This document shows, in pieces, positions 1 to 63,600 of a stretch of 64,000 bases of DNA (its first letter is position 1; the number at the start of each line of letters is the position of its first letter). The notes below the pieces were generated by a model that did not search any database, was not told the origin of the DNA, and saw nothing but the letters and a program-made list of their open reading frames with translations. Source of the DNA: Morinoia aosen (lineage: Eukaryota > Arthropoda > Malacostraca > Amphipoda > Talitridae); the NCBI GenBank assembly GCA_030386875.1, contig CM059572.1, positions 35,089,732-35,153,731 on the forward strand, given 5' to 3'. The translations under genes and the position numbers were made by a program.

Positions 1-980
1 ATATAAGGAAATAATGTTATTATAAAGCCCATGTAGGAGTTATAATGGTTTTATTTTAATACAAGTGTGCACGGCCCGCCAAAAATGGGATTCAATACTT
101 TTCATGAACGAATTTTCGTGATGTAGATGATAAACAAATACAGTATATCCATCCTAACAGTACCCGTGATGAAAAATATTTTTCGCACCGTTGAAACTCG
201 TATCACAGATACGGCCATTATAACTATCCTTATGAGCGTGAGTGACAGAGAAATGGAAGAAACAGACACCAAGCAAATAAACCAAGGGCAAGGGTATTAT
301 TAGGTAGCAGCATGACCCATTGAAATGCCGAGGACAATGTCATCGTTAAGCTAGATGGACCCATGGAAAAATTCCGGCAACATTATCTAACTTATGCTAT
401 CCTAATTCTATGTCGTGACTCGCACCGCCGTAAAGCACGTTCACGACGCAAAGGCCTAGCGATCGTCATTACATGGTAGCAACTGCGGTTCTTGTAGACC
501 CTACACCACTAATGCGTTTTCCACTGTTGCCAATACGTAGAACGGAAAGTCAGGTAGGTTTAAAATGTTTATGCCGAGCACATATGTACAAGAACACACA
601 AAGCTCTCTTGACTCGGAGTTCCCCTCTGGTGAAAAATCACCATTACTCAAAAATGATTACTTCGGATACAGCTATTCACCAAATTACTATTTTTAATTT
701 AATGTCTTTTAATTATTCAATTTGGCCTAAAAGCTGCACAAAAGCGACATGGTTAGGAAAATGCGCAAATTACGGCGATCACAACAACCTATCCAATACT
801 ACTAACCTATCCTGATAAAATTTCAAACATATCAATGCATGTACAGACGAACTTTCAATGTTACACTGAGGAATTCGGTCTCCGTGATACCGCAAACTCA
901 GACATCCTATGTTTCTCAAGAAGCGGACACCAAACTAATACATAAACTAACATACAACGGGTATTATTAGGTTAGATGAT
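1..980. other. Unassigned AT-rich sequence, probably intron of the separase-like gene
   Basis: No exon could be supported on either strand. A motif at 144-189 recurs at 18737-18778, which marks it as dispersed repeat material. Confidence 0.4.
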
Positions 981-982
981 TG

Positions 983-1110
983 TAAAAGTATCGGTATCGG
1001 TAGTAGTATCGGTCAAAGTATCGGTATTTTCAAGTATCGGAGTATCGGTATCGGCCAAAAAATGGGTATCCGTATCGGTATCGGCCAAAAAAATGCTATC
1101 GGTACATCAC
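983..1110. repeat. Degenerate GTATCG microsatellite-like tract
   Basis: About 15 imperfect copies of the 6-mer GTATCG are spread over 130 bp, interrupted by A-rich spacers. Confidence 0.8.
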
Positions 1111-1117
1111 TACGGCA

Positions 1118-1690
1118 GCAACATCTAACCAAGCACTAACAACAGCCCCTGCTCCATATGCTAAGCATGCCCAGCAACATCTAACCAAGCACTAACAACA
1201 GCCTCTGCTCCATATGATAAGCGTGCCCAGCAACATCTAACCAAGCACTAACAACAGCCCCTGCTCCATATGATAAGCGTGCCCAGCAACAACTAACCAA
1301 GCACTAACAACAGCCTCTGCACAAGGCACTGCTAAGCAAGAACACCAACAACTAACCAAGCACTAACAACAGCCCCTGCTCCATATGCTAAGCATGCCCA
1401 GCAACATCTAACCAAGCACTAACAACAGCCCCTGCTCCATATGCTAAGCATGCCCAGCAACATCTAACCAGGCACTAACAACAGCCTCTGCACAAGGCAA
1501 TACTAAGCAAGAACACCAACAACTAATCAAGCACTAACAACAGCCTCTGCTCCATATGCTAAGCATGCCCAGCAACATCTAACCAAGCACTAACAACAGC
1601 CCCTGCTCCGTATGCTAAGCCTGCCCACCCACAGTGAACCGAGCACTAACAACAACTCCTGCTCCAGGCAATGCTAAGTAAGAACGGCAC
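1118..1690. repeat. Intronic tandem array of about 56-60 bp units carrying splice-donor copies
   Basis: About ten units alternate between two subtypes. One contains CCATATGCTAAGCATGCC, the other CACAAGGCANTNCTAAGCAAG. On the minus strand each unit repeats the end of exon 5 and its donor: CTTGGTTAGTT or CTTGGTTAGAT. The array starts directly at the real donor of exon 5 (1698). Confidence 0.85.
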
Positions 1691-1698
1691 CAACTAAC

Positions 1699-1882
1699 CA
1701 AGGTTGCGGTAGTGAGGTGCAGTCTCAGCATCGAGGGGCAGCAAAGCCCGCAAACTGGACTCAGCTCTGGCGCTCCAGGAGGCAGCTCTGCACACGTCTG
1801 GACCACTATCCACCGTCGAACTTGCTTCATGGTTCAGCTGAGCCACCAAGGTTTTGTACCAACGCTGCAAGCTTCCAACCAC
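1699..1882 (-). CDS. Exon 5 of the separase-like gene
   Basis: This exon has 61 codons plus one base, phase 0 to phase 1. The acceptor is TGACCATAG ending at 1883. The donor is CTTG|GTTAGT at 1698. It is G+C-rich relative to its flanks and encodes LQRWYKTLVAQL followed by an alanine/arginine-rich helical stretch. Reading past the donor gives an immediate TAG. The intron that follows begins with a tandem array (1118-1690) built from the same donor-region sequence. I found no next exon between 1 and 1118. Confidence 0.55.
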
Positions 1883-4800
1883 CTATGGTCAGTAAAAGCA
1901 TAGTATTTAAAACTGTTAAGTGGTGTTGAAATTGATTGCACAGGGTTCAACACTAATAGTAAAAAAATGTGGCATTATGAATAAAAAACGCAAGTGACTA
2001 ATATCGCCCCTGAGAAATACTACTGAACCAAGATCAAATTACTGAAACGAGCAAAACACTTCTACTAAAAAACACAAAGAAAAATACTGTAAACAAATAT
2101 TTAGATCACGTATAGAAAAGAATACTATTCAATCACATTATTTTGGATTATCATGAAACTGCAAAGGCAAGTCTTCCCAGCTTATTGAAGTCAGGTAAAA
2201 CGTGATGAATAAGCTTCTATCTTTATGTACATCTGGACTTCATATTTCATTTAAACAAGCAATCTAAGCACAAATATTATGAATCAAGTACCATTTGAAG
2301 GAAATCAATACTTGCATTTATTTCAATTTATGTAGAAGCACAAAAAGAAGCATTGTCCTCATTTCCTTACAGTGCAAGGTTCTTGTTAGAAGGCTGGTGC
2401 CACTGTGATGTGGCAACCACATCATGGCTCCTCCTCTCAAGACTTATTCATCATAAAACTCAAGTTTACAGATTTCTGCAATAGAGCTGAAATTTCTCTC
2501 GCACCTCTCATTGACACACCCCGAACAATGTCACTTTTTACACTTATCCGCATAAATTTCAAATTAGGACTAGAAGGAGCACAACCAGAAATTTAGTGAA
2601 TAGCTATAAAATAGTGATTGTAGTACCAAAACTGTAGGAAAAAAGGGAAAGTAGCCCTCTAATACATTCATATAAGTTTATGTTCTATAAAATGAGCTTA
2701 AAAGCTGTATTATGCATAAATTCCCTTTACCTTCACAGAAATTAGTTTTAAATTAAGCCAAAGTGACCAATATAAGCTAATCAAACACAAAACATTTGTC
2801 AATTCATAGACAGCCTACATCTGTTGGAAAATATTGACAATAAACCACTCTAATTTAGACAAAAAGTCTTAACATGAGCTCCTATTACTTCAGAGACACC
2901 GCTGATTGTACGAGACACCCAACAAAATTACTGGAATTACGACTCTGGGTCAGACAAGAAAACTTACCTTGAACTTTCACTACTACAGAAACACAACACA
3001 GCTGGCTCTATGAGACCCCCAACAAAAGTGATGGAAACACACAGAGTTTGACAAGAGGACTTACTTTGAACTTCCACTACTGCAGAGACACAACACAGCT
3101 GGCTCTATGAGACACCCAACAAAAGTGAAGGAAACACACCAAACATGATAAGAGGACTTACCTTGAGTTTGACAGAGGCCTCAGCATCAGGTGTGATATA
3201 GGTGAGCACTAAACTCAGAATTTGATCCAGCCCCGAGATCGACGCTGGTATGTACTGCTCATGAAAGTAGAGAGACTCAGCAGACTGAGTAAGTTTAGTA
3301 TCAACATTTAAAAATGAAAATAAGACAAATCATCATTGAATTAAATGGGTAGATTTTCAATAACATCAATAGCACATGAACTAAGACAGGCATATGAAAA
3401 CACTAGCATCACCATTTTTACCCATGAAGTGCATCAAAACTTATTTTGTTTATATAAATTCTCAGATATTATTCCATAGACACTCAACACCAACAACAGG
3501 AGAGCAAACCGTGTGAAAACAATGAAATGTCAGGAATTAAGTTTTAGCATATTAGATTATAGGTTAGCTTAAACCTCCCTAACCACAACAAGGGTGTTCC
3601 CAAGAAAGGAAGAAGGAAGGCACTATTTCACATGAAATTAGGGAAATGGGTAATCTATGCACAAGCTATGTCCTCACAATCTGCTCACAGAAACAGCAAG
3701 ATAAACATAAATTTATAAAGGAAGATAAAACTTGAGAAGAAAGTATTAGGTGACAAAAAAGAACAGCGACTCAGTAAAGAAAAAGATGAATAACTGAGCA
3801 AAAAACCTTTTCTATTTGAACAAAAGGAAGGGCTTCTCAACCTCCACCTAAGGATCTCACATCATCCTCTTGAGAACAAATTTCAAAGCTACTACAGTCG
3901 TGTTGAGCAAAGGTTTGAAGGAAGAAGTTATTCAGTCATAAATGTAAGAGACACCAGGAACATTCTTAAGAAGTAAAATGAAGAAGATAATTTCAACTAG
4001 CTAGAGAATACAACCAAAACTCCATATATGAATGGTAAATAAATAAACCAATAGAATTGTTACATGAAAAACTTGGAATTGTAAATGTAATTCCTTGAAA
4101 GAATGCACAAGTACTGATAGCAAATTCAATTTAATTTTTCACTGCAAAACTAGAAGCAAGAGAGAACTCGTACCACTAGACAAACAAGGTAATCATCTGC
4201 AGTAGGGGTAGGATTCATCCTACACTGACTATAACAAATTTGCCCGTCAGTGAGACCAAAACACTCGCTTTAAAGCAGTGGTCTCCAAACTACAGCCCAC
4301 GGGCGAAATTCGCTCACCAGTGTGACCAATACGGCCCGCAACAGTTAACAGCTTATTATTGTTAATGTTAATGTAGATAATGGCAAGAAAATTAAAACGC
4401 TTTTTGCCAATGGAACTCACTGGAGGAATCAGTATGGCCTAAAGACTGGAAAGTTTGGAGATTCCTGTTATAAAGCATTTCATTTTTAACAGCTAGTAGC
4501 ATTCACAATATTTTAGCCCACCAGGTATGAAGAATACAGTGAATACACCATGCACTTCATAAATAGAAAATTGTATGCAATAACTAAATGACAGACAAAA
4601 AAATAAGTCTACAACAAAATAAGTTGGTCAGCACAGCAGCTTAGCACTACATTATTTAGCCTAGTACCCACAGATGCAACTATAACAAGATCAACAACAA
4701 GCTTAAAATTTATTATTTATGAAATCAATTGCATGCACCTGAAAACTGTCAAGACTGACCCATAATAACTACCCATCAACCACAAATGAAAATTCAATTC

Positions 4801-7800
4801 CATGATTCTTTGGCCTATTTTTACAAATTATAACATGTTAACACATTCCCCGAGTATTGGTACATAAGTGTACCATTAGGTAAATTTGTCATTTACGTAC
4901 CTGGATGAACGTACAGCATTTAAACTATTTTACTAATAAATTTTTGCATACTAGGTAACATATTAATGTGCAATCGTATTTTCCACATTTGATGGAAAGA
5001 ATAAAGCGTATTCATGCAGTGAAGCAGGTCTTTAAGATGGTTTCTTTTAACCTAACTAAAGAGACCAAAACTGCACAAAAGTAGTGAATGTGTTGTTAAG
5101 CTAGTGTTGTGGACTCACTGAGGCATCCTGAGACTCAGCATCTTCCAAGGCATCAAGAGTAGCCAGCAGGCACTGCAGAGCTACCCTACGTGCACCGGCG
5201 TCGACAATGACCGTCTCGTGGTACTGCCTCACCACATCCACAGCTGCCTCCAGGTCAGCAGCTGGAGCACCACAGTGTTGAACTCTCTGAGCTGAGAGCA
5301 AAGTCTGCAGTCCAGTGTACACAGAACTATAACAAACCTGACCACACAGACCCTTCAGTGTCTTCAAGGAATATTTGAGTATATTTGGATGCTCATGGAT
5401 TTTACAGCAACTTATAAGGGTTATGATTTCTGCTACATCAGACGGAGTTAATTTTTTAGATAAGGTGATGTGAGCAAAGACAGCTACAAGAATTTGATGA
5501 TAAAATGATACAAGCTGAGTTTCATGGTCATTTTTGAATGGAGCTAGACTGGTTTCATTCTTCTTAACTGACTGATTTAAATTTAAGTTGATTTGAGAAT
5601 CACTTAGTTCCTCAAATTTCCTGGTGAAATTAGAAGCTGTCATAGAGGCAAGTGATACAACTTTGCCAATTGAGTCAGGCGCTGCAGTTAAGAGAAATAA
5701 AAGGGCATGACGTTGCAGCTTGAGTGCCACTATTGCATCTGGACAGCGGAGAGAGAGGTTCCATACTATCTGGTATAATGATTTGATGAAGGCTAAGGTC
5801 TCAGGATTATTGTGGCACTTGCTGATGTGCGAGCTGAGGTAGGAAAGTAGCCGCAGGGTACTGTAGAAGTCATCCTGAAAAGTAAAACGTTGATAAACAC
5901 AGCAGTTGAGAAACATTAAAATGTCAGTGAGAAAAAGAGCAAAATATGTATTTGAATACTTGTAAAATGGTATAAAATTGGTTGACACGCCTCAAAGCAG
6001 GAGATATATATATATATGAACAATAATCTCAAGGAAATGGAAAAACTTTCAAGAAAAAGAGAAAAGAAAAACATTTAAATGAAAATTTTTGCCTCCAGTT
6101 GTTAGTGAAAGGCTGCTAGACAGTAAACAAACAATTAGAAAGCAGACATTAACACTTTTGAGGAATCATACCTTTTTGGCCGCAACTTGCACCACATAAT
6201 AAAGGCTTTTATAGTAAGTGGCAATGTTGAAACTTGGTGCGGATGCCAGGCCATCGCACGCCTGGGTCACAATGGCCACGAGGTCAGAATGCACAGCATT
6301 GCTGTCAAATGCACAGCGAGAACTGTAGCGCAGCACCTGCAGGTGCTCCTCTGTGCTGCATTCCTGTCATGTCATCACAATTAGCATTATTTGCACAGGT
6401 AATCTAAAAGACAGCATCATAAATCACAAGAAAAGTTAGGTTAAATGTTAGTTCAAGCCATCCTAATTAGAAAATTACAATGAACAGCAAGAGAATTTTT
6501 GGCTATCTATTAGTGATGGGACAAATAATCTGAATTGAACTTGGAGAATTGGACATTTTAGCATGACAACTATTACATCTTGAGGTAGCATGATCATGCA
6601 TTTGGATTCTGGAGGACCAAAAGTGCCTATAAAAGACCTCAATGACAACCTCCTAGCTGTAAAAATGTAGTCAACAACAATACAACACTATGAAAAGAAG
6701 AAACTAAAGTCAGCTGATATGAGCCTGTAATACAGGCTCTCAATGACATATAAAATTTTGCTAACCAGCACCCAATCCACCAGAACTTGGTGCATCTCAA
6801 ATTCAATTCTTGATACTGACTGTCCATGACCATCATGGTCCTTTTAACAGCAACCATAAAAACACATATTTCTTGGACTCCAAATGCCAATTCCTTGTTT
6901 CTTTGCTAGCAGCCATGCCAAAAAACACTTCTCTTTTTTAGCAGTAACGGTTTTTATTTAGGTTGATTATGTCAGATGATGACAGGTAAAACACATTGAT
7001 TCAACAAAATCACACCATCATAAATGAATTTCTGATGATCAATAATGATTGTTGAAAGAAACAAATTAATTAAAAAACTAGGGGTTTATTATATTAAAAC
7101 TTGTATAAAAGAACTTTATCCTATATATATATACCAATGTTTAAATGCCAGGAAGAATTTCAAGGTACTTTATTTTGCCCAGACACAATGACAAATTGAA
7201 ACTATGAGTAGCTATCTAGCAAATTTTTTTTGGTGGAACTATTTCCAAGTGCCTTAAAATCAAAATTCAAAAAAAATTGAATCACAATAATGCCTATTAC
7301 ATGCATTTTTCCTTTTCCAAGAGGAAGAATGATTAGATTAGATTATTAGTTAGTTTAAGCCTCCCTATCCGCAACAAAGGCTATCCAAAGAGAGGAAAGA
7401 AGAAGGCACCATTTAGTATGGAGTTAAGGAAACGCAGAATCTATGCAGAAAGGGCACAAAAACAGAAAGCTAAGAAAGAAGTTCATGAAACAAGAAAAAG
7501 TTGAAGAAGAAAGTAGTAGGTGCTGAAAAAACAGGACAGCAGTGAACCGAAAAAAGATGGTCCGTAACAAAACAAAAACCTATGTTATTTTCACAAAAAG
7601 AAAGCCTACCTAACCTTTAGCTTGGGCCCAGAGGAAGAATGAACTTAGACTGGATGGAGCAATACCAACCTACTCCAACTACAGTTGTTTACAAACTAAT
7701 GAGCACCGATGAGCACTCCTATGCAAGACTGCAACTGGAGGAACAAAATGTTTTGATTGAATGCCACTTATCTTATTAAAAGTCAATTTTATACCATATA

Positions 7801-32323: not shown

Positions 32324-34692
32324 TTCAAATCTCGCCATTTCAAATTCTAAATTTGAAATATTGAGTGATCATTGCTTGTTTTGGCTATTTATATGAAATA
32401 ATGCAGCAAGTGTTAGTTCTCAGTTATGAAATTTGATCAATATAACTGAATCTGAGTTCCCATCGTTCAGCAGGGAAATTTTTAGGAAATATCATAAACT
32501 ATTGACTTTACAGTTCTAAGCGTAAAATAATTGAACACATTCATGAATTACAAAAAAGAGTGTGGAAAGTATAAGTTGCGTACTTTGTGCCGACTTGCAT
32601 AATGACTTCCGAAACGAAATGTGTTCTTCAGTTGCTTCATTTCCTTCAGTTTTAGCAGAGAGTTACTGCAGAGAGTTTTGAGGAACACGCAATTAAAGTT
32701 AACTCCTGACCTCCTTAAATTGTTCACCACGTTTTTTTAATCGCAGAAAGTTTTCATAAACGGGAAACAATTCAAAACTGCATCGAATGTAACCGCTATT
32801 TCAATTTGTCTTTCATGTTTGGCGCATGTCGAGCATTTCACATTTTTGTGGGAACTGGATGGCTTTCTTGAAGCTTTTCCATATATTTTGTGGAATAAAA
32901 TCTCGAAAATTCTAATCCAGCGATGCCTAGTACTGACAAAAGGGCATTTTCTGTGTCAATAATTCCGTTGACGATTATCGTGATGATATTAACCTTTTTA
33001 ATGTAATGCATTTGCAAAAATTTTTATGATAAGTGTGATGATATTGATATTTTTAACGTACATATTATATTTCTTAAAGTTGTACATCATGTCTTACCTG
33101 AAAGTGCTAAAAATAATCATGATATATACACAACTAAACGAAACTTTATGGGTGATTTTTTGGCAGAACCGGTTCTGAGGTGGACTGTGAATAGTCTGAC
33201 ATAGAATTCTATCATAACACAGGGAAGGAAAAAATATGTCGAAAATATTGCTGAAATTAATGGGAACAGTTACCCGACTGTGAAACAGTACGTCTCCTTG
33301 GTAAAGCCAGGTAATTTTTGAGCTGAAGCATAGACGAGTGGGTCAGGAAAGTCCTAAATAGTGAGAGCTTGAAGGCCGCTGCCTCAGAATACAAACCGCA
33401 AACACAATTCAAGCCCCAAAACTTGCGGAGTCAGCCTTGTGAGTTTGACGTGTCTGCCGCGTTCACAGTCAAGGTTTTCCAGGAGTTCTGCTGCAAAAAA
33501 TGAACTAAACACAAGGAAGTGTTAGAATAAACTTCATCTTTAGGATTGTATCGAAAAAGCATCTTTTTCTACAATATTTGGGCCGTCATAAGTAGAAGTA
33601 GTAAAAGGGCTCACTAGCGTTTGGGTAGTCGTATCTAGTCGCACGGCACGAGTTGCTTCAGAGGTTTTAATTTCACCAGCTTTCTTCAGGCGTTCGAAAC
33701 TTCGACGCTTTCGAAGAATCTGTAACGAGCAAGGCTCCAGAATAGATTCACTTTGAATAAATTTCACTACATACAATCGAGCTCAAATTACAAAAATCTT
33801 CTTCATAAGGTGACGAAATTGACTTTTCTTCTCGCAAATGAAATAAAGCTCATTGGAGTTTTTTGTTGTTTTCTCAGCGACGAATTCCAAAAAGGTTTAT
33901 CAGAATCTTCTTTCAAGAAGCTGAGAACAATGAGGCAAAGTCGCCGCTAACGAAACTCAATCCTTGCCTCCAAAACAAAACCCTTGTCACGCTTTCTTCT
34001 AAGTTTTTCCAAGGCAACGTACATTCTTTTAATGCTTGAGAATTGTTAGTGCGCAGAGACGCGGAGTCTTAATGAACCTTTGAAGAGCCGCCGCACCTCA
34101 GCTTGTTTTTCTGCGATGTGGCAAATTCTTTCGCTCATAAAACTCTGCTACTGTTTAGGAAAATTTTGGAGCAAATTATTTAGCTGGAAAAAACGCTGGG
34201 ATGTGAAGGAAAAAATTTAAAAAACGCTATTCGTGCCAAGCTCGAAAAATAACCAAATATAGAACACCAACAAACACGGCTTTTAAAGAGCAATGAACTT
34301 TATTTCAAACGCAGTGTTGTTCAGCCGTTGCTGAGCCAAGTGCTGGGAGTGAAACCTGATGATTCAATTTTGATAAATTTATCTAGGAGCGATTAAACTT
34401 ACGAGCTCGCTCACAGAACGTTGATTTACAGCTGTAAAAAACCTCTTGCCCTGAAATACTGTCGTTTCAAATGTACACTCACCGTTTCAAAGGCTGGTTA
34501 GGTAAATTGTTCTTCAGCATTTAAATGGTCATTTTAACGGTTACATGAGAATGAGATATCTGCTAATGTATCTCCGATACGTGAAGTTTTGGGTGCTGTT
34601 TAGGATGATTTTAACGGGTCGCTAGGAAAGCTCAAATAGAAAAATATCCAGGAGAATTTCTTGTTAATTTGAACGCCAAAAGGCGTGTGCTG
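32324..34692. other. Unassigned intergenic sequence
   Basis: An open frame at 33540-33776 (-) has a protein-like mix (ILRKRRSFERLKKAGEIKTS) but no clear splice signals or similarity. Nothing else is supported. Confidence 0.35.
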
Positions 34693-37677
34693 TGATGGGT
34701 AAATATGACGTACGTGATGGACAAGGTGATGTAGGTGATTGACGATGTGATGTAGGTGATGGGCAGTGGGATGTAGGTGATGGACAATGTGATGTAGGTG
34801 ATGGGCAGTGGGATGTAGGTGATAGATGATGTGATGTAGGTGATAGACCATGTGATATAGGTGATGGGCAGTGGGATGTAGGTGATGGGCAGTGGGATGT
34901 AGGTGATAGACGATGGGATGTAGGTGATGGACAATGTGTTGTAGGTGATAGAGGATGTGATGTAGGTGATGGGCAGTGTGATGTAGGTGATAGATGATGT
35001 GATGTAGGTGATGGATGATGTGATGTAGGTGATAGACGATGTGATGTAGGTGATAGATGATGTGATGTAGGTGATGGGCAGTGTGATGTAGGTGATAGAT
35101 GATGTGATGTAGGTGATAGACAATGTGATGTAGGTGATAGACGATGTGATGTAGGTGATGGGCAGCGGGATGTAGGTGATAGACGATGTGATGTAGGTGA
35201 TGGGCAGTGGGATGTAGGTGATGGGCAATGTGATGTAGGTGATGGGCAGTGGGATGTAGGTGATGGGCAGTGTGATGTAGGTGATAGACAGTGTGATATA
35301 GGGGATAGACGATGTGATGTAGGTGATGGGCAGTGTGATGTAGGTGATGTGCAATGTGATGTAGGTGATGGGCAATGTGATGTAGGTGATGGGCAGTGGG
35401 ATGTAGGTGATGGGCAGTGGGATGTAGGTGATAGATGATGTGATGTAGGTGATAGACAATGTGATGTAGGTGATAGACAATGTGATGTAGGTGGTGGATA
35501 AGGCGATGTAGGTGATAGATGATGTGATGTAGGTGATAGACGATGTGATGTAGGTGATAGACAATGTGATGTAGGTGGTGGACAATGTGATGTAGGTGAT
35601 AGACGATGGGATGTAGGTGATGGGCAGTGTGATGTAGGTGAAGGATAATGTGATGTAGGTGATAGACGATGTGATGTAGGTGATAGACGATGTGATGTAG
35701 GTAATGGGCAGTGTGATGTAGGTGATGGATAATGTGATGTCGGTGATAGACAATGTGATATAGGTGATAGACCATGTGATGTAGGTGATGGGCAGTGTGA
35801 TATAGGTGATGGGCAATGTGATGTAGGTGATGGCCAATGTGATGTAGGTGATGGGCAATGTGATGTAGGTGATGGGTAGAGGTATGTAGGTGATGGGCAG
35901 TGGGATATAGGTGATGGGCAATGTGATGTAGGTGATGAGCAGTGGGATGTAGGTGATGGGCAATGTGATGTAGGTGATGAGCAGTGGGATGTAGGTGATG
36001 AACGACGTGATGTAGGTGATGGGTAGTGGGGTGTAGCTGATGGGCAATGTGATGTAGGTGATGGGCAGTAGGATGTAGGTGATGGGCAGTGGGATGTAGG
36101 TGATGGGCAATGTGATGTAGGTGATGGGCAGTGGGATATAGGTGATGGGTAGTGGGATGTAGGTGATGGGCAGTGGGATGTAGGTGATGAGCAGTGGGAT
36201 GTAGGTGATGAACGACATGATGTAGGTGATGGGTAGTGGGGTGTAGCTGATGGGCAATGTGATGTAGGTGATGGGCAGTAGGATGTAGGTGATGGGTAGT
36301 GGGATGTAGGTGATGGGCAGTGGGATGTAGGTGATGGGTAGTGGGATGTAGGTGATGGGCAGTGGGATGTAGGTGATGGGCAATGTGATGTAGGTGATGG
36401 GCAGTGGGATATAGGTGATGGGTAGTGGGATGTAGGTGATGGGCAGTGGGATGTAGGTGATGAGCAGTGGGATGTAGGTGATGGGCAATGTGATGTAGGT
36501 GACGAGCAGTGGGATGTAGGTGATGGACGATGTGATGTAGGTGATGGGTAGTGGGATGTAGGTCATGGGCAATGTGATGTAGGTGATGGGCAGTGGGATA
36601 TAGGTGATGGGTAGTGGGATGTAGGTGATGGGCAGTGGGATGTAGGTGATGGGCAGTGGGATGTAGGTGATGGGCAGTGGGATGTAGGTGATGGGCAGTG
36701 GGATGTAGGTGATGGACGATGTGATGTAGGTGATGGGTAGTGGGATGTAGGTGATGGGCAATGTGATGTAGGTGATGGGCAGTGGGATATAGGTGATGGG
36801 TAGTGGGATGTAGGTGATGGGCAGTGGGATGTAGGTGATGGGCAGTGGGATGTAGGTGATGGGCAATGTGATGTAGGTGATGGGCAGTGGGATGTAGGTG
36901 ATGGGCAGTGGGATATAGGTGATGGGTAGTGGGATGTAGGTGATGGGCAGTGGGATGTAGGTGATGGGCAGTAGGATGTAGGTGATGAGCAGTGGGATGT
37001 AGGTGATGGACGATGTGATGTAGGTGATGGGTAGTGGGATGTAGGTGATGGGCAATGTGATGTAGGTGATGGGCAGTGGGATATAGGTGATGGGTAGTGG
37101 GATGTAGGTGATGGGCAGTGGGATGTAGGTGATGGGCAGTGGGATGTAGGTGATGGGCAATGTGATGTAGGTGATGGGCAGTGGGATGTAGGTGATGGGC
37201 AGTGGGATATAGGTGATGGGTAGTGGGATGTAGGTGATGGGCAGTGGGATGTAGGTGATGGGCAATGTGATGTAGGTGATGGGCAGTGGGATGTAGGTGA
37301 TGGACGATGTGATGTGGGTGATGGGCAGTATGATGTAGGTGATAGACGATGTGATGTAGGTGATGGGCAGTGGGATGTAGGTGATGGACGATGTGATGTG
37401 TGTGATTGGCAGTATGATGTAGGTGATAGACGATGTGATGTAGGTGATGGGCAGTGGGATATAGGTGATGGACGATGTGATGTGGGTGATGGGCAGTATG
37501 ATGTAGGTGATAGACGATGTGATGTAGGTGGTGAGCAGTGGGATGTAGGTGATGGACGATGTGATGTAGGTGATGAGCAGTGGGATGTAGGTGATGGACG
37601 ATGTGATGTGGGTGATGGACGATGTGATGTGGGTGATGGGCAGTATGATGTATGTGATTAGCAATGTGAAGTAGGCC
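34693..37677. repeat. 21-bp minisatellite of about 3 kb (about 142 copies)
   Basis: The unit GATGTAGGTGATGGGCAGTGG varies at a few positions (GGGCAG/GGGCAA/GGGTAG/GACGAT/GATGAT). The left third mixes types, while the right two thirds shows higher-order blocks of about ten units. Since 21 is divisible by three and stop codons are absent, a 1015-codon frame (-, repeats like ITYIPLP) and a 391-codon frame both stay open. I treat both as artefacts. Confidence 0.95.
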
Positions 37678-38540: not shown

Positions 38541-41500
38541 CGACCGTGGTGTGGGTCTCACCCCCCCGCGTGGTGTGGGTCTCACCCCCCCGCGTGGTGT
38601 GGGTCTCACCCCCCAGCGTGGTGTGGGTCTCACCCCCCAGCGTGGTGTGGGTCTCACCCTCCAGCGTGGTGTGGGTCTCACCCCCCGCGTGGTGTGGGTC
38701 TCACCCCCCAGCGTGGTGTGGGTCTCACCCTCCAGCGTGGTGTGGGTCTCACCCTCCAGCGTGGTGTGGGTCTCACCCCCCAGCGTGGTGTGGGTCTCAC
38801 CCTCCAGCGTGGTGTGGGTCTCACCCTCCAGCGTGGTGTGGGTCTCACTTCCCAGCGTGGTGTGGGTCTCACCCCCCAGCGTGGTGTGGGTCTCACTTCC
38901 CAGCGTGGTGTGGGTCTCACCCCCCAGCGTGGTGTGGGTCTCACCCCCCAGCGTGGTGTGGGTCTCACCCCCCAGCGTTGTGTGGGTCTCACCCCCCAGC
39001 GTGGTGTGGGTCTCACCCCCCAGCGTGGTGTGGGTCTCACTTCCCAGCGTGGTGTGGGTCTCACCCCCCAGCGTGGTGTGGGTCTCACCCCCCAGCGTGG
39101 TGTGGGTCTCACCCCCCAGCGTGGTGTGGGTCTCACACCCCAGCGTGGTGTGGGTCTCACCCCCCAGCGTGGTGTGGGTCTCACCCCCCAGCGTGGTGTG
39201 GGTCTCACCCCGCAGCGTGGTGTGGGTCTCACCCCCCAGCGTGGTGTGGGTCTCACCCCCCAGCGTGGTGTGGGTCTCACACCCCAGCGTGGTGTGGGTC
39301 TCACACCCCAGCGTGGTGTGGTTCTCACCCCCAGCGTGGTGTGGGTCTCACCCCCCAGCGTGGTGTGGGTCTCACTTCCCAGCGTGGTGTGGGTCTCACC
39401 CCCCGCGTGGTGTGGGTCTCACCCTCCAGCGTGGTGTGGGTCTCACCCCCCGCGTGGTGTGGGTCTCACCCCCCGCGTGGTGTGGATCTCACCCTCCAGC
39501 GTGGTGTGGGTCTCACCCTCCAGCGTGGTGTGGGTCTCACCCCCCGCGTGGTGTGGGTCTCACCCTCCAGCGTGGTGTGGGTCTCACCCCCCGCGTGGTG
39601 TGGGTCTCACCCTCCAGCATGGTGTGGGTCTCACCCTCCAGCGTGGTGTGGGTCTCACCCTCCAGCGTGGTGTGGGTCTCAGCCCCCGCGTGGTGTGGGT
39701 CTCACCCCCCGCGTGGTGTGGGTCTCACCCTCCAGCGTGGTGTGGGTCTCACCCTCCAGCGTGGTGTGGGTCTCACCCTCCAGCGTGGTGTGGGTCTCAC
39801 CCTCAAGCGTGGTGTGGGTCTCACCCTCCAGCGTGGTGTGGGTCTCACCCTCCAGCGTGGTGTGGGTCTCACCCTCCAGCGTGGTGTGGGTCTCACCCCC
39901 CGCGTGGTGTGGGTCTCACCCCCCCGCGTGGTGTGGGTCTCACCCCCCCGCGTGGTGTGGGTCTCACCCCCCGCGTGGTGTGGGTCTCACCCCCCGCGTG
40001 GTGTGGGTCTCACCCTCCAGCGTGGTGTGGGTCTCACCCTCCAGCGTGGTGTGGGTCTCACCCTCCAGCGTGGTGTGGGTCTCACCCTCCAGCGTGGTGT
40101 GGGTCTCACCCCCCGCGTGGTGTGGGTCTCACCCCCCCGCGTGGTGTGGGTCTCACCCCCCCGCGTGGTGTGGGTCTCACCCTCCAGCGTTGTGTGGGTC
40201 TCATCCCCCCGCGTGGTGTGGGTCTCACCCTCCAGCGTGGTGTGGGTCTCACCCCCCAGCGTGGTGTGGGTCTCACCCTCCAGCGTTGTGTGGGTCTCAT
40301 CCCCCCGCGTGGTGTGGGTCTCACCCTCCAGCGTTGTGTGGGTCTCATCCCCCCGCGTGGTGCGGTTCTCACCCTCCAGCGTGGTGTGGGTCTCACCCCC
40401 AGCGTGGTGTGGTTCTCACCCCCCAGCGTGGTGTGGTTCTCACCCCCCAGCGTGGTGTGGGTCTCACCCCCCAGCATGGTGTGGTTCTCACCCTCCCGCG
40501 TGGTGTGGGTCTCACCCCCCAACATGGTGTGGTTCTCACCCTCCCGCGTGGTGTGGGTCTCACCCCCCAGCATGGTGTGGTTCTCACCCTCCCGCGTGGT
40601 GTGGGTCTCACCCCCCAGCGTGGTGTGGGTCTCACCCCCCAGCGTGGTGTGGGTCTCACCCCCCAGCATGGTGTGGTTCTCACCCTCCCGCGTGGTGTGG
40701 GTCTCACCCCCCAGCGTGGTGTGGGTCTCACCCCCCAGCGTGGTGTGGTTCTCACCCCCCAGCGTGGTGTGGGTCTCACCCCCCAGCGTGGTGTGGGTCT
40801 CACCCCCCACCGTGGTGTGGTTCTCACCCCCCGGCGGGGTGTGGTTCTCACCCCCCATGGTGTGGTTCTCACCCCCCAGCGTGGTGTGGTTTTCATCCCC
40901 CGGCGAGGTGTAGTTCTCAACTACCAGCGTGGTGTGGTTCTCACTCCCCCCCCCCCCAGCGTGGTGTGGTTCTCACCCCCCCCAGCGTGGTGTGGTTCTC
41001 ACCCCCCAGCGTGGTGTGGTTCTCACCCCACAGCGTGGTGTGGTTCTCACCCCCCAGCGTGGTGTGGTTCTCACCCCCCAGCGTGGTGTGGTTCTCACCC
41101 CCCAGCGTGATGTGGTTCTCACCCCCCAGCGTGGTGTGGTTCTCAACCCCCTCAGCGTGGTGTGGTTCTCACCCCCCAGCGTGGTGTGGTTCTCACCCCC
41201 CAGCGTGGTGTGGGTCTCACCCCCCAGCATGGTGTGGTTCTCACCCTCCCGCGTGGTGTGGGTCTCACCCCCCAGCGTGGTGTGGGTCTCACCCCCCAGC
41301 ATGGTGTGGTTCTCACCCCCCAGCGTGGTGTGGTTCTCACCCTCCCGCGTGGTGTGGGTCTCACCCCCCAGCGTGGTGTGGGTCTCACCCATCACCGTGG
41401 TGTGGTTTTCACCCCCCAGCATAGTGTGGTTCTCACCCCCCAGCGTGGTGTGGGTCTCACCCCCCAGCATGGTGTGGTTCTCACCCTCCCGCGTGGTGTG

Positions 41501-42412
41501 GGTCTCACCCCCCAGCGTGGTGTGGGTCTCACCCATCACCGTGGTGTGGTTTTCACCCCCCAGCATAGTGTGGTTCTCACCCCCCAGCGTGGTGTGGGTC
41601 TCACCCCCCAGCATGGTGTGGTTCTCACCCCCCCCGCGTGGTGTGGGTCTCACCTCCCAGCGTGGTGCGGTTCTCACCCCCAGCGTGGTGTGGGTCTCAC
41701 CCCCCAGCGTGGTGTGGGTCTCACCCCCCACCGTGGTGTGGTTCTCACCCCCCGGCGGGATGTGGTTCACACCCCCCAGCGTGGTGTGGTTCTCACATCC
41801 CCCCCGTGATGTGGTTCTCACCCCCCGGCGGGGTGTGGTTCTCACCCCCCCCATGGTGTGGTTCTCACCCCCCAGCATGGTGTGGGTCTCACCCCCCAGC
41901 GTGGTGTGGGTCTCACCCCCCAGCACGTATGGTTCTCACCCCCCCGCGTGGTGTGGGTCTCACCCCCCAGCGTGGTGCGGTTCTCACCACCCAGCGTGGT
42001 GTGGGTCTCACCCCCCAGCGTGGTGTGGTTCTCACCCCCCAGCGTGGTGTGGGTCTCACCCCCCAGCATGGTGTGGTTCTCACCCCCCAGCGTGGTGTGG
42101 TTTTCACCCCCCCTGCGTGGTGTGGTTCTCAACTACCAGCGTGGTGTGGTTCTCACCCCCCCCCAGCGTGGTGTGGTTCTCAACCACCAGTGTGGTGTGG
42201 TTCTCACCCCCCAGCGTGGTGTGGTTCTCACCCCCCTCAGCGTGGTGTGGTTCTCACCTCCCAGTGGGGTGTGGTTCTCACCCCCCCAGCGTGGTGTGGT
42301 TCTCACCCCCCAGCGTGGTGTGATTCTCACCCCCCCCGTGGTGTGGTTCCCACCCCCCGGCGGGGTGTGGTTCTCACCCCCCCCCCCCGTGGTGTGGTTC
42401 TCACCCCACAAT
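38541..42412. repeat. 24-bp GC-rich minisatellite of about 3.9 kb (about 160 copies)
   Basis: The unit GTGGTGTGGGTCTCACCCCC plus CAGC has indels of one or two bases in the C-run, giving 23-26 bp units and switching frames. Up to about 40380 the core is mostly GGGTCTC; to the right GGTTCTC becomes common. Each unit can form a small GGGTCTCACCC hairpin. Open frames of up to 998 codons in several frames are by-products. Confidence 0.95.
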
Positions 42413-48727: not shown

Positions 48728-50064
48728 GGTATAAAGGATACACTGAGGATGGGGACGCGGTATCCTGGATACACTGAAATGAGGTAGGAGACGCGGTATC
48801 CTGGATACACTGAAATGAGGGAGACACAGTATCCTGGATACACTGAAATGAGACTGGAGACGCGGTACCCTAGATACACTGAAATGTATCTAGGTATCCT
48901 GGATACACTGAAATGAGGCTGGAGACGTGGTGTCCTGGATACACTGAAATGAGGCAGGAGATGCGGTATCCTGGATACACTGAAATGAGGCAGGAGACGC
49001 GGTATCTTGGATACACTGAAATGACGCTGGAGACGCGGTATCCTGGATACACTGAAATGAGGCTGGAGACGCGGCATCCTAGATACACTGAAATGACGCT
49101 GGAGACGCGGCATCCTGGATACACTGAAATGACGCTGGAGACGCGGTATCCTGGATACACTGAAATGACGCTGGAGACGCGGTATCCTGGATACACTGAA
49201 GTGAGGCTGGAGAGACAGTATCCTGGATACACTGAAATGAGGCTGGAGACACCGTATCCTGGATACACTGAAATGAGGCTGGAGACTCAGTCTCCTGGAT
49301 ACACTGAAATGACGCCGGACACGCGGTATCCTGGAAACACTGAAATGACGGTGGAGACGCGGTATCCTGGATACACTGAAATGACGCTGGATACGCGGTA
49401 TCCTGGAAACACAGAAGTGACGCTGGAGAGGTGGTATCCTGGATACACTGAAATGAGGCTGGAGACGCAGTATCCTGGATACACTGAAATGAGGCTGGAG
49501 ACACATTATCCTGGATACACTGAAATGAGGCTGGAGACACAGTATCCTGGATACATCGAAATCAGGCTGGAAACGCGGTATCCTGAATACACTGAAATGA
49601 GGCTGGAGACGCGGTATCCTGGATACACTGAAATGAGGCTGGAGACACAGTATCCTGGATACACTGAAATGAGGCTGGAGACACAGTATCCTGGATACAC
49701 TGAAATGAGGCTGGAGACACAGTATCCTGGATACACTGAAATGACGCTGGAGACGCGGTATCCTGGATACACTGAAATGTGGCTGGAGACACAGTATCCT
49801 GGTTATACTGAAATGAGGCTGGAGACGCAGTATCCTGGATACACTAAAATGAGGCTGGAGACGCGGTATCCTGGATACACTGAAATGACGCTGGAGACGC
49901 GGTATCCTGGATACACTGAAATGACGCTGGAGACGCGGTATCCTGGATACACTGAAATGACGCTGGAGACGCGGTATCCTGGATACACTGAAATGACGCT
50001 GGAGACGCGGTATCCTGGATACACTGAAATGAGGCTGGAGACGCGGTATCCTGGATACACTGAA
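48728..50064. repeat. 36-bp minisatellite, about 37 copies
   Basis: The unit TATCCTGGATACACTGAAAT plus GAGGCTGGAGACGCGG is strictly 36 bp over most of the array. Common variants are GAGG/GACG and ACGCGG/ACACAG. A short deletion and duplication break it near 48880-48900. It leaves a 438-codon plus-strand frame (RYPGYTEMTLET repeats) that I regard as an artefact. Confidence 0.95.
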
Positions 50065-50239
50065 ATTAAAACTTCGGACAAAAGTGGCGAGCTGAGCTCA
50101 GCCATGATTGTCGCTGCTAATTGCGAATTAATTTTTGTGAAGACTTGCTGGCTCTGTTCTGCTTCAGCCGATGTTCTGCTGGGGCTCTGTGTGGGTCTCG
50201 GAGTGTCTGCCACTGTGTGTTGGGACTAAACTATTCTGT

Positions 50240-50977: not shown

Positions 50978-51392
50978 CGATGCCAATAACTTCGCAGACG
51001 CAGTAGCGCACAAATGTAGCTGTGCTATTTTTATCTAGAGTTTGTTTTTGTTGAAATTTATAAATAGTTCCCTGTTTCGATTTTCTAAAGTGTTTTGTGC
51101 GCGCTAACCTCAATGAAACCCCTCTGTAACTCCCGTATTATTTGTACGTTGTAGCTGTGGTTTTGTTCGTGGCTGTGCGAGACCCATGTACGCGTTCACT
51201 GATGAAATGTATTGCAGGTTGTTCCTATATTTGATGCCCGGTAACTTTGAGAAAAAAATCTAGGTGCTACTATAGCGTGAGGTCTACCGCCATATATCGC
51301 CTACCCAGGTTATGTACAAATTAAGTGTTTATCGCTAAATTAAATTTAAGGAAATAAGTAATATCCATTAGTAACCTAACCTAACCTGACGC
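50978..51392. other. Left flank of the 52-bp satellite
   Basis: It contains one inverted copy of the satellite core (GCTACTATAGCGTGAGGTCT at 51264-51283). It also has a block at 51228-51262 that recurs right of the array, and a short AACCTAACCTAACCTGAC run at 51375. Confidence 0.6.
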
Positions 51393-53995
51393 TATAGTAC
51401 TAGCTAGAGGTAGATCTCATGCTACAGTGTTGTAGACCTCATGCTATAGTACTAGCTAGAGGTAGATCTTGTGCTACAGTGTTGTAGACCTCACGCTATA
51501 GTACTAGCTAGAGGTAGATCTTGTGCTACAGTGTTGTAGACCTCATGCTATAGTACTAGCTAGAGGTAGATCTTGTGCTACAGTGTTGTAGACCTCATGC
51601 TATAGTACTAGCTAGAGGTAGATCTTGTGCTACAGTGTTGTAGACCTCACGCTATAGTACTAGCTAGAGGTAGATCTTGTGCTACAGTGTTGTAGACCTC
51701 ACGCTATAGTACTAGCTAGAGGTAGATCTTGTGCTACAGTGTTGTAGACCTCACGCTATAGTACTAGCTAGAGGTAGATCTTGTGCTACAGTGTTGTAGA
51801 CCTCATGCTATTGTACTAGCTAGAGGTAGATCTTGTGCTACAGTGTTGTAGACCTCATGCTATAGTACTAGCTAGAGGTAGATCTTGTGCTACAGTGTTG
51901 TAGACCTCATGCTATAGTACTAGCTAGAGGTAGATCTTGTGCTACAGTGTTGTAGACCTCACGCTATAGTACTAGCTAGAGGTAGATCTTGTGCTACAGT
52001 GTTGTAGACCTCATGCTATAGTACTAGCTAGAGGTAGATCTTGTGCTACAGTGTTGTAGACCTCACGCTATAGTACTAGCTAGAGGTAGATCTTGTGCTA
52101 CAGTGTTGTAGACCTCATGCTATTGTACTAGCTAGAGGTAGATCTTGTGCTACAGTGTTGTAGACCTCACGCTATAGTACTAGCTAGAGGTAGATCTTGT
52201 GCTACAGTGTTGTAGACCTCATGCTATTGTACTAGCTAGAGGTAGATCTTGTGCTACAGTGTTGTAGACCTCACGCCATAGTACTAGCTAGAGGTAGATC
52301 TTGTGCTACAGTGTTGTAGACCTCATGCTATTGTACTAGCTAGAGGTAGATCTTGTGCTACAGTGTTGTAGACCTCACGCTATAGTACTAGCTAGAGGTA
52401 GATCTTGTGCTACAGTGTTGTAGACCTCATGCTATTGTACTAGCTAGAGGTAGATCTTGTGCTAGTGTTGTAGACCTCACGCCATAGTACTAGCTAGAGG
52501 TAGATCTCATGCTACAGTGTTGTAGACCTCACGCTATAGTACTAGCTAGAAAAGATCTTGTGCTACAGTGTTGTAGACCTCACGCCATAGTACTAGCTAG
52601 AGGTAGATCTTGTGCTACAGTGTTGTAGACCTCACGCTATAGTACTAGCTAGAGGTAGATCTTGTGCTACAGTGTTGTAGACCTCATGCTATAGTACTAG
52701 CTAGAGGTAGATCTTGTGCTACAGTGTTGTAGACCTCACGCTATAGTACTAGCTAGAGGTAGATCTTGTGCTACAGTGTTGTAGACCTCATGCTATTGTA
52801 CTAGCTAGAGGTAGATCTCATGCTACAGTGTTGTAGACCTCATGCTATAGTACTAGCTAGAGGTAGATCTTGTGCTACAGTGTTGTAGACCTCACGCCAT
52901 AGTACTAGCTAGAGGTAGATCTTGTGCTACAGTGTTGTAGACCTCATGCTATTGTACTAGCTAGAGGTAGATCTCATGCTACAGTGTTGTAGACCTCATG
53001 CTATAGTACTAGCTAGAGGTAGATCTTGTGCTACAGTGTTGTAGACCTCACGCTATAGTACTAGCTAGAGGTAGATCTTGTGCTACAGTGTTGTAGACCT
53101 CATGCTATCGTACTAGCTAGAGGTAGATCTTGTGCTACAGTGTTGTAGACCTCACGCTATAGTACTAGCTAGAGGTAGATCTTGTGCTACAGTGTTGTAG
53201 ACCTCATGCTATTGTACTAGCTAGAGGTAGATCTTGTGCTACAGTGTTGTAGACCTCACGCTATAGTACTAGCTAGAGGTAGATCTTGTGCTACAGTGTT
53301 GTAGACCTCATGCTATTGTACTAGCTAGAGGTAGATCTTGTGCTACAGTGTTGTAGACCTCACGCCATAGTACTAGCTAGAGGTAGATCTTGTGCTACAG
53401 TGTTGTAGACCTCATGCTATTGTACTAGCTAGAGGTAGATCTTGTGCTACAGTGTTGTAGACCTCACGCTATAGTACTAGCTAGAGGTAGATCTTGTGCT
53501 ACAGTGTTGTAGACCTCATGCTATTGTACTAGCTAGAGGTAGATCTTGTGCTACAGTGAATTGTAGACCTCACGCCATAGTACTAGCTAGAGGTAGATCT
53601 CATGCTACAGTGTTGTAGACCTCACGCTATAGTACTAGCTAGAGGTAGATCTTGTGCTACAGTGTTGTAGACCTCACGCTATAGTACTAGCTAGAGGTAG
53701 ATCTCATGCTAAAGTGTTGTAGAGCTCACGCTATAGTACTAGCTAGAAGTAGATCTCATGCTACAGTGTTGTAGACCTCACGCTATAGTACTAGCTAGAG
53801 GTAGATCTCATGCTACAGTGTTGTAGAGCTCACGCTATAGTACTAGCTAGAGGTAGATCTCATGCTACAGTGTTGTAGACCTCACGCTATAGTACTAGCT
53901 AGAGGTAGATCTTGTGCTACAGTGTTGTAGACCTCACGCTATAGTACTAGCTAGAGGTAGATCTCATGCTACAGTGTGGCAGATCTCACGCTATA
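51393..53995. repeat. 52-bp satellite array, about 50 copies, with higher-order structure
   Basis: The unit is GACCTCACGCTATAGTACTA plus GCTAGAGGTAGATCTTGTGC plus TACAGTGTTGTA. It is itself a diverged dimer: GTAGACCTCATGCTATAG and GTAGATCTCATGCTACAG are related halves. In the middle of the array, units with CATGCTATTG alternate regularly with CACGCTATAG or CACGCCATAG units, giving a 104-bp higher-order repeat. Confidence 0.95.
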
Positions 53996-55002
53996 GCAGC
54001 ACCGAAGATGGAAGCCGTATTTGATTCCAGCTAACTTCGAGAAACAAATCAGTTTCTCGCGCCCCACATTGCGCCGCTAACGCCCATGCAGTCCACATTT
54101 CGGTGGCGGCCGACTAACCACACCGCTTCACACTGTGCACCTTCACTTTGGGATACCACTGAGGCTTATAGCGATTTGCTTTTACAGCAATAGATGGTAT
54201 TTTTTCTCCACGAATCATTCCAGTTCCCCCCAAAAATCCATGACCTTAACAGCTTAGGTAATTACCAGACTTTAGAGTTAAAGATAAAAAATTATTTGCA
54301 GCATTCTCTGGAAGTAGCAGGTAGTTCTTAGTAAGGTGGTTGAAACTTGAAAATTGTTTTTTATACTATCAGCATAAAGCATTATTCTAGTTAATGTTCT
54401 AAAGCAGGGACTGGAGTAGTTTATTAATCTTGTCCAATGAATTAAAAAGCTAGAAATTATGACAAAATTATATAACAGCATTGGCTGTTGCTGTGCCTTA
54501 CGCGATCTATCCAAGTTCTGACTTGCATACACGAACTTACTCTCTCGATCCTAAACTTAGAGCCGCTACACAGTTGCCTAAGATTAACTGGCATAAATAA
54601 ATTAATGAGGCTTAAGCCCAGGTGTTCGGGAGAAGATTAAATTCCAAAACGGAATGAAATTCGCTCATCAAATTCAAGTAATCCTTCAGTGCTCGTCTTT
54701 TTAATTTAAAAACAATCGCTAATCAGACAGCGTTGTTGCACTCGATGTCTGACTGACCACGTTCTGTGAGAACGCGTTTTGTGGCAGAAATGCTATTGTG
54801 AATATTGCCTCGTAAAAACCTTCAATTTTGATGTCGAATCATATACGAGAATATTCGTCTCTTTGCCACAATACTCAATAAAAATTGTAGGTGTTTGAGG
54901 CGGTGAGAAGATTTGCCGAATTCTTCAACGTTTCCCTTGATTCAGCGATTTAATAGATGCTTTTCCTGCATTTAAGTTTGAAAGATTAAAGCGGAAATGT
55001 TA
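53996..55002. other. Right flank of the satellite and unassigned sequence
   Basis: It starts with a block (54017-54050) that resembles the left flank of the satellite. No gene seen. Confidence 0.4.
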
Positions 55003-60697: not shown

Positions 60698-63600
60698 TTA
60701 AACAATTTAAACAATTTAAACAATTTATTCACCACAGGTGATACAGAGGTAGAATGTTTCTTAAGTCTAGTACAATGGTTAAATTTGAGTATAGCTACCT
60801 GTGGGCCCGAACAAGTTCAGCGACTTCTAGGGCATCCTATCATCACGTTATTCTAGGGTTTACAATAATGTTTAACCTAGTTTACTTAACCTAGTTTCGC
60901 ATTAGACTGATCATTGAGATAATTAGCTCGATATTTTATGCTGTATTTTACAATATAGGTCAAATCGGCTGTATTTAACAGTATGTTCGATAAAACGATT
61001 CAAGAGCAGACAGAAGATTGGTTATGGTACCCAAGGCAAGTTACATTATGACATTATCATTAGTTACATGAAGGAGGCAAGATTTCGACACGGTGATCTT
61101 ACACGACTAGTATTCTGATAGGAAGTGACACTCAAGATGTCTTTAGAATACTTTGTACGAATTACATTCACGGATCTCTGCAGGTATAGAGTTCCAAGTT
61201 TTGGTTCCAACGAAGAGGATACTGTGTTGCGACCGGGCCTTTGAATTATAAGGAAGCATGAATTTACTTCTATTTCGGGTTAAATGGTCGTGATGACCAG
61301 TTTACGCAGTCAATAATTGTCTAAGGCTATTGTCGCCATCATTTCTTAATGTTTTGTAAATGAAATTACGGATGGAGATTTTGTAGAGATCCGAAAGTTT
61401 AAGTATTTGTAAATTTTTGGAAGAATCATTTGTGTGAGCATTATATTCTAGGTTCTTTACCGCTCTGACAGCTCTTTTCTGCAGTGTAAAAATTTTGTTG
61501 GTTTTATTTTCATCAGTTCCGTGCCACGCTTCTATTCCGTATTGCAAGTATGGAGAAATAAGCGTTCGGTAGAGCATTTGTAAAGCTGTTTCAGGCAGAA
61601 AATTTTTAACTTTATTCAGGATTCCGATGGTTTTTGATAATTTAGAACTAATATGAGTGATGTGCTCTTTGAAGGTCAGATGTTTATCTACTATGATGCC
61701 CAGAAACTTACATGAGTTGGTTTCTTCGATTACACCTTCGCCAATTTTAATGCATGGGAGAGATACATCTTTCTTGTATGAGAATGTAATATAATTTGTT
61801 TTATCAATATTAAGGCTTATTTTATTAGCTTTGAGCCACGATGAAACCTTATGAATTTCATTATTTATACTCTCCACAATCATAGCGGGATTTTGGTTCG
61901 GAAGGACAGCAGAAAGCGTACTGTCATCGGCAAAAAGTATGAATTTGAAGAATGATGTAGATTTTACAATATCATTGATAAAAGTCAGAAACAGGAGAGG
62001 CCCAAGAACAGATCCTTGTGGAACTCCATGGCTAATTGTCTGTGGGTCTGATTTTGCGTCGTCAATGACAACGTATTGCTTCCGATTTGTTAGGTATGAT
62101 CTGAACCAATCATGGGCAATCCCTCGAATGCCATAACAGTGTAGTTTCGAGAGTAGTATTTCATGGTCCACACAATCGAATGCTTTTCGAAAGTCAAGAA
62201 ATACAGAGAAGACAGGCTTTCCTTCATCTATATTAGAGTAGAGGAATTGTAAATGATTTAATATAGCCTGTGTTGTTGATTTTTTAGAGCGAAAGCCGTA
62301 TTGTTTATCGTAAAGAAATGATTTTTGTTCAAAATAAGAGTACACTTTTTTATACACAATCTTTTCGAATACTTTGCTAATAATTGGTAGTACGGAGATA
62401 GGTCGATAATTGTTTACACAGGTTTTTTCACCGCTTTTAAAGATAGGGGTTACTCTAGCAACTTTGAGGGAGTTCGGGAAAGTGCCTAGTGAGAGAGACT
62501 GGTTAATAATATTCGATATCAGCGGGGCTACAATGTCAGCAATAACTTTAAGTACTTTAGTCGGAAACGTTTGTAGCCCACTCGATTAATTTTTAATGTT
62601 GTTTATGCACGTAATTACATCGGAGGAGTTTGTAGGCGTAAAGAAAAAGGGGTTGGGTTCTCGAATATGGTCCATAAATTCCAGGTGACCAGTAGGTTCA
62701 CTTGGAATCCCATCAGCTATAGTTTTCTCTACGTTTACGAAGAAGTTGTTTAAGAGATTAGCAATTTCTTTCTTCTCATGGTATTTCACATTATCTTGAA
62801 TGACATATTCAATTTTCTTTTTATCGGCATTATTCGGTTTACAGCAAGAGTTAAGGAGATGCCACGTCTTTTTAACGTCAGTTTTGAATTGAGTAAACTT
62901 GAGCGTAAAGTAGTTCTTTTTTGATGTTCTTATCTGGTTTGTTACATAGCTTCTGAATCGGTCATATGTTTCTCTAGATATTCGCCCTTCGCAAATGAGG
63001 GCTAGGTACGCTTGACGTTTCTTTATATTTATCACGATGTCTCTAGTAATCCAGGGCTTTTGTTTATTTTTCGTGGTAACTGTACGAGTTACGATTGGGC
63101 AACACTGATTGTATGCGGTCATTATAGTTTCAGTCAACTTTACTACTGCTTCATCAATGCTCGTAGCATTATAATTTTGTTGAGAGATTTGCAATGTAGG
63201 CACTGATTCTTCTAGAACGGTGTGCATTTCTTCATCTTCAAGATTTGATTCGTTTATTTTACGATATGAGTAAGTTTCAGCCCGTGCCTTGGTGCAAGCA
63301 ATATAGACATTTTTCTTAATAAGAAAAACTGGGAAGTGATCTCATAAGTCAGAAGTAATTATTCCAGCAAGAAAATCACTCGGGTCTGTCATAAAGATAT
63401 TGTCAAGCAGCGTAGCACACTCTGAGGTTATTCGTGTAGGCTTTGTAATGATCGGAAGGAAGGATTGAGACTGAAAGGTTGTTAGGAAATTAGAGATTGG
63501 TTCATAGCTTTCATGTTTCAGTAGATCATAATTGTAGTCACCGCATATTATTATGTCATTGTATAAGGGCTTGTTGAACTGAGAAATAATACGATTCAGC

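Follow-up and report, generated by a model that had tools for sequence, protein, structure and literature searches.

Splice donors within tandem repeats have been encountered before. Turri et al. are said to have described, in 1995, a minisatellite with donors in human IFI6 (6-16), whose repeat unit is 12 nt long, and Zhuo et al., in 2007, reportedly derived introns from tandem arrays or from exon duplication. The IFI6 minisatellite is reported to provide donors, two of its downstream repeat units being used as such to give three mRNA species (PMC4526556), and introns have been described as arising when splice motifs are duplicated in tandem (Lehmann et al. 2010, PMC2891723). Here, we analyze a 64,000-bp stretch of the amphipod Morinoia aosen (hereafter the window; NCBI GenBank assembly GCA_030386875.1, 1.99 Gb; contig CM059572.1, or C17, positions 35,089,732 to 35,153,731 of the forward strand), in which two consecutive introns of one minus-strand gene open with tandem copies of their own donor. 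The gene runs leftward from beyond 6.4 kb in the window past the window start; 60 kb of left flank were examined, and negative coordinates are window-relative and lie left of the start. We consider it quite likely that these repeats are intronic minisatellites of an ordinary sort, in a genome with unusually many of them. A donor-bearing minisatellite is already known from IFI6; what is added is that, in this genome, such arrays are no rarity.

Donor-bearing arrays in two consecutive introns

The two exons, their arrays and an associated insertion are:

3162..3284, minus strand: exon 4, 123 bp, phase 0/0, donor AAG|GTAAGT
2953..3166, minus strand: array A2, unit length 97 bp, first 5 bp within exon 4
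2855..2940, minus strand: diverged third A2 unit, donor lost (sequence comparison of units)
1699..1882, minus strand: exon 5, 184 bp, phase 0 in and phase 1 out, donor CTTG|GTTAGT
1116..1702, minus strand: array A1, unit length 56/59 bp, first 4 bp within exon 5
-3067..1112 (right end in window, 1..1112), no strand assigned: 4,180-bp insertion with inverted ends (TAGTGATGTACCGAT), splitting A1

Both arrays are seen on direct reading and by Tandem Repeats Finder (TRF), as the initial annotation had stated. TRF assigns A1 a period of 56 bp (59 bp in some units) with 9.7 copies at 1116-1666, extended to 1702 with a period of 171, and A2 a period of 97 bp with 2.2 copies. Relative to the first base of the intron, A1 starts at -4 and A2 at -5, so four and five exon bases, respectively, are common to exon and array. 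The accompanying statement that every unit carries the donor holds in part. Ten A1 units do lie downstream of the real exon-5 donor, but seven of them have the exact CTTGGTTAG[TA] and three are degraded; A2 does repeat its donor, as AAA|GTAAGT at +97 and AAG|GTAAGT at +194, but the diverged third unit has lost it. Nor does A1 end at 1118, as first thought: 4.2 further units lie beyond the insertion, at -3304..-3068. Because A1 resumes there, it probably predates the insertion, whose flanks agree at 7/8 bases on both sides ((C/G)CAGCAAC) with the right end set two bases further (..CACTACG).

By unit size and copy number, A1 (56 bp x 9.7, plus the 4.2 copies beyond the insertion) and A2 (97 bp x 2.2) are intronic minisatellites. 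They share with ordinary ones their period, copy number, decay among units and a locus-private unit, in that searches of the genome with the A1 and A2 units returned no other locus among the matches listed; they differ in that they happen to reach the splice site. As in IFI6, each is a minisatellite at an exon-intron border with donors in its units: 7/10 A1 units have a sense-strand donor in register with the real one, and A2 has its donors at +97 and +194. Whereas the IFI6 units are 12 nt and two of them are reported to be used as donors, those of A1 and A2 are 56-97 bp and their donors are putative. The introns of Zhuo et al. and Lehmann et al. also involve tandem duplication of a stretch with a splice signal, but there the duplication creates the intron, while here the arrays fill the ends of existing introns. 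A donor array that reaches the acceptor, with an exon start matching the unit, is found in neither intron 4 nor intron 5, because A2 stops about 1 kb short of exon 5 and the A1 unit differs from the acceptor-side repeat unit at exon 6; intron 5 is therefore not one array.

Repeated junctions and the intron background

Such donor repeats had been called unusual. Further cases occur in the same gene, in CCT and in kinesin, and the view is not supported, in that junctions are repeated about as often as intron positions. In the gene itself, "exon 10" (acceptor uncertain) ends ATGTGTGCTCAG|GTAATG and is followed by:

-13520..-12969: exon-10 donor array (L004), 17 donor-like sites in 31-bp units, ATGTGTGCTCAG|GTAGTG and variants

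TRF finds 17.2 copies of this unit, starting 13 bp inside the exon. The real donor and 16 further sites thus stand 17 in a row; most of the latter read CAG|GTAGTG, with GAG before the GT in three and AAG in two. No other donor array of the gene is as striking, and 17 similar donors in a row offer a natural experiment on donor choice by the spliceosome. At exon 8, the last ~50 bases and the donor recur once, placing a second donor 97 bp downstream; the acceptor of exon 6 lies within a two-copy 40-bp repeat that has 11 bp of the exon start in common; and at two further donors of the gene an array starts at +3 and +14.

For comparison, we surveyed 51 loci of the same genome with exons of CCT, myosin or C50-peptidase genes, drawn from the best-scoring matches, with the 30 best of each of the CCT/cpn60 and myosin families taken as the sample. 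A simple script that scored candidates by donor frequencies picked the splice sites; some matches stop at the edge of a domain instead of an exon, and some picks may be false. The acceptors of L037 and L067 and the donor of L064 were set by hand before the probe count, and the L009 donor was dropped. Neighboring myosin loci on contig C1 overlap each other. The junction count excludes bacterial-type groEL loci (L013-L020, L023-L025), L042 and L012, which is the window itself.

Arrays cross a CCT acceptor with four 38-bp units bearing GCAG|GA (L021), a second CCT acceptor (L034) and a CCT donor, where 16 exon bases are included (L037). The donors of L060 (CT-rich) and L029 give weaker probe matches, with no TRF array near the junction. 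The myosin donor L067, at one stage counted as a clear donor array, reaches 20 of 30 in the probe test described below, just under the cut; its nearest unit alone reads TTCCAGGTCAATG, while the consensus of its 23.9 units is TTCCAGGAGGTCAATG and TRF places the start 26 bp into the intron, so it is retained as a possible case. Among five kinesin loci that were read (L073-L077, outside the counts), one (L075, C21:3726194-3727066) has its donor and the last ~55 exon bases repeated further down the intron; two shorter copies lie in the interval.

The rate at which junctions are repeated was measured with a 30-base probe laid across each junction and a match of >=21/30 within 700 bp of intron. In the survey, 3/50 donors (L037, L060, L029) and 2/51 acceptors (L021, L034) had such a match, against 81/1717 control intron positions (4.7%). 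Lowering the cut-off to 20 gave 4/50 donors, 2/51 acceptors and 6.3% of controls; at 19 the values were 5/50, 2/51 and 9.6%. TRF arrays covered 2/50 donors (at +5) and 2/51 acceptors, compared with 5.9% of all bases of the surveyed loci. The gene of the window behaves alike: in the probe test 4/33 junctions had a match, as did 12.3% of 2050 controls, and arrays, which make up 13.7% of its intron sequence, covered 4/17 donors (P = 0.20) and 5/33 junctions (P = 0.48).

Array coverage in the survey changes with distance from the junction. Within exons there is none 30-60 bp from the border and 1.4-2% over the final 10 bp; introns have ~4% in their first 30 bp and 3-9% at greater depth. The arrays seen extend at most 16 bp into exons, and two lone duplications (exon 8, L075) carry 50-55 exon bases. 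Arrays therefore extend to junctions about as often as they occur within introns, and end there. Chance does not account for the repeats themselves; how often they sit at donors is roughly what array density predicts. Array edges show no clear excess near surveyed junctions, either within 15 bp (1/50 donors, 0.48 expected; 2/51 acceptors, 0.49 expected) or within 30 bp (3/50 donors, 0.94 expected, P = 0.07; 2/51 acceptors, 0.96 expected).

Genome-wide, tandem triplets of two strong donor motifs number 927 (CAGGTAAGT) and 495. Six control motifs (one differing by a single base, one with two bases swapped and four read backwards) give 204, 1366, 527, 412, 1309 and 851, and both donor motifs fall inside this range of 204-1366. 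The counts are per match rather than per array, such that large arrays weigh more, and they indicate no clear enrichment rather than a precise ratio. A dispersed 40-bp minisatellite family (CAGGTAAGTACGGAGCAGCGTGGAAG...) has a perfect donor consensus in its units, occurs on contigs C1-C4 among the matches listed, and makes up 60/100 of the listed CAGGTAAGT places.

Several observations weigh against equating these arrays with the intron background. An array starts within 15 bp of 5/17 donors of the gene, where ~0.2 such donors are expected at random edges (29 arrays in 68 kb). Donors covered at +5 are more frequent in the gene than in the survey (4/17 vs 2/50, Fisher P = 0.03), as are all covered junctions (5/33 vs 4/101, P = 0.04), in a comparison for which the gene was chosen by two of its covered junctions. 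The survey is small, some of its loci overlap and some script-picked junctions may be wrong; its 5/101 has a 95% interval of 1.6-11%, and an enrichment of up to ~2.4-fold is therefore compatible with the data. The duplications at exon 8 and L075, with their ~50-55 exon bases, exceed what a strict stop at the exon edge gives, and that of exon 8 was missed by both the probe and the TRF tests. Finally, CAGGTAAGT forms 4.5x as many triplets as its one-base change CAGATAAGT (927 vs 204). With a single gene to judge from, a mild excess at junctions is possible. Array coverage in the gene is over twice that of the survey, and a pile-up of edges at junctions is what constraint on exons predicts.

Proposed origin and predicted consequences of the copied donors

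Donors were scored with general donor frequencies. The real donors score 8.6 (exon 4), 1.5 (exon 5), 3.8 (exon 10) and 6.8 (exon 8), and the best copies 8.6, 1.6, 3.8 and 5.5, respectively. The two A2 copies reach 8.6 and 5.3; at exon 5, whose donor is weak, the copies at +342 and +401 tie with it and the one at +230 accounts for the 1.6. In all four cases the exon-proximal donor is the best or within 0.1 of the best, and on these scores it is most likely the one used.

Reading through into the intron meets an in-frame stop at +2 after exon 5, +54 after exon 4, +63 after exon 10 and +102 after exon 8. Among the 27 copied donors scored after these exons, 19 shift the frame and the in-frame ones lie beyond an in-frame stop. 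Both A2 copies are frame-shifting and beyond the stop, the +2 stop precedes all A1 copies, the first two exon-10 copies (+31 and +62) are out of frame and the others follow the stop at +63, and the exon-8 copy is frame-shifting. With such frameshifts and stops, a role of the copies in tuning protein isoforms, as first suggested, appears unlikely; judged from their positions, they could at most alter mRNA dose via premature stops or add frame-shifted products.

We propose that a local tandem duplication happens to span the exon-intron border, taking in a few terminal exon bases, the donor and the first part of the intron. With the original copies of exon and donor still intact, the duplication would be tolerated and free to expand into the intron; growth towards the exon would be halted by coding constraint, and the arrays would thus start at the border and contain copies of the donor. 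Acceptors would be subject to the same process. We infer that the arrays are neutral, and the downstream donor copies would be by-products. On this proposal, a repeat-rich genome tolerates tandem duplications that approach and even cross its splice sites, and exon sequence is probably what limits them.

The initial annotation also raised a break or slippage hotspot, and donors might indeed seed arrays, for instance through R-loops or breaks where exon meets intron, or through microhomology at AG|GT. The array starts near 5/17 donors of the gene, the 16 further copies after the exon-10 donor, the recurrence of duplications with ~16 to 55 exon bases (exon 8, L037, L075) and the 927 CAGGTAAGT triplets against 204 for the one-base change would all fit. 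Repeated junctions are nevertheless without excess over intron positions, acceptors are affected as well (L021, L034, exon 6), and the two donor motifs stay within the range of the six controls, with one dispersed family supplying the 60/100 listed places; we regard a donor hotspot as quite improbable. Recruitment in the opposite order, in which older arrays supplied the exon ends and array copies later became the donors now used, through intron creation or sliding by tandem duplication, would account for the 11 bp of the exon-6 start held in common with its acceptor array. It sits poorly with the 4-5 exon bp shared in A1 and A2, with an intron 5 that is not one array, and with exon-10 and exon-8 repeat copies that contain coding sequence reading in frame in the exon, and we give it very little credence.

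The copied donors might instead be used and set gene output, with premature stops and mRNA decay letting array length set the dose of what may be a cell-division gene. A2 copies that equal the real donor or come near it, the weak exon-5 donor and the stops that follow soon after are in keeping with this, but the exon-proximal donor leads or nearly leads in every case scored and the A1 copies are decaying, 3/10 of them degraded. The precedent is human IFI6, where repeat units are reported to serve as donors (PMC4526556). On balance, use of the copies for dosage strikes us as improbable. A broader version is also unlikely, if a little less so: a sizeable share of splice sites (4-5% of the 101 sampled, 12-15% of the 33 in the gene) would lie in arrays repeating the splice signal, changes in array length would yield competing sites, and in some genes, such as that with the 17-donor exon 10, this would set mRNA dose via premature stops. 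Ordinary intronic minisatellites, abundant in this genome, remain the explanation we prefer.

Gene model and neighboring observations

Two further exons lie upstream in the gene within the window:

6172..6363, minus strand: exon A, 192 bp, phase 0/0
5119..5874, minus strand: exon 3, 756 bp, phase 0/0

Splice phases are consistent between exon A and exon 8 and again between exon 10 and exon 23, and neither joined product contains a stop; the splice sites were partly chosen by eye with the open frames in view, such that this agreement is support rather than proof. The phase of exon 10 does not follow from exon 8, which leaves its acceptor uncertain; the acceptor of exon 27.8 is unset, and the model omits a possible exon near -7.9 kb. 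Exon 5 is compatible in phase with exon 6, beyond the window, through a G|GG join. Exon 6 wholly contains a weak TPR_2 match (E = 0.0018, 18.7 bits, below the curated cut-off of 27), and a weaker TPR_12 match crosses the exon 5-6 join (E = 0.047). With matching phases and weak TPR matches, exons 4 and 5 look real. A terminal exon 5, with TAG right after CTTGG, was ruled out because exon 6 continues in phase and carries the TPR match.

A Pfam search of the gene products gave sub-threshold matches only (TPR and picornain 3C, the latter taken for chance), and a search of PDB by sequence with the same products gave no match. The exon layout is reminiscent of separase in its N-terminal half, or of insect three rows. 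C50 (separase) peptidase matches in the genome fall only on contig C24 (C24:52808820-52812568, L009-L011), a contig other than C17; the two together may constitute a split separase as in flies, should the separase likeness of the C17 gene hold.

Elsewhere in the window, very long minisatellites occupy 34692-37658 (42 bp), 38545-42407 (24 bp), 48744-50066 (36 bp) and 51384-53996 (52 bp), the first three of which are open in several frames over hundreds of codons. On the minus strand at 61305-63998, adjacent open frames resemble, by eye, a LINE-type endonuclease and reverse transcriptase. Two further observations concern the surveyed families. Six myosin matches stand in a row at C1:35644596-35648320, each starting at about the same profile position (376-378); insect muscle myosin has mutually exclusive exons, which this row resembles. 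Bacterial-looking groEL frames (L013-L020, L023-L025) occur at C27:56.8-71.8 Mb, with seven uninterrupted and one in two pieces, and at C26:20.8 Mb, with one; these may be bacterial DNA joined into the contigs, or transfers.
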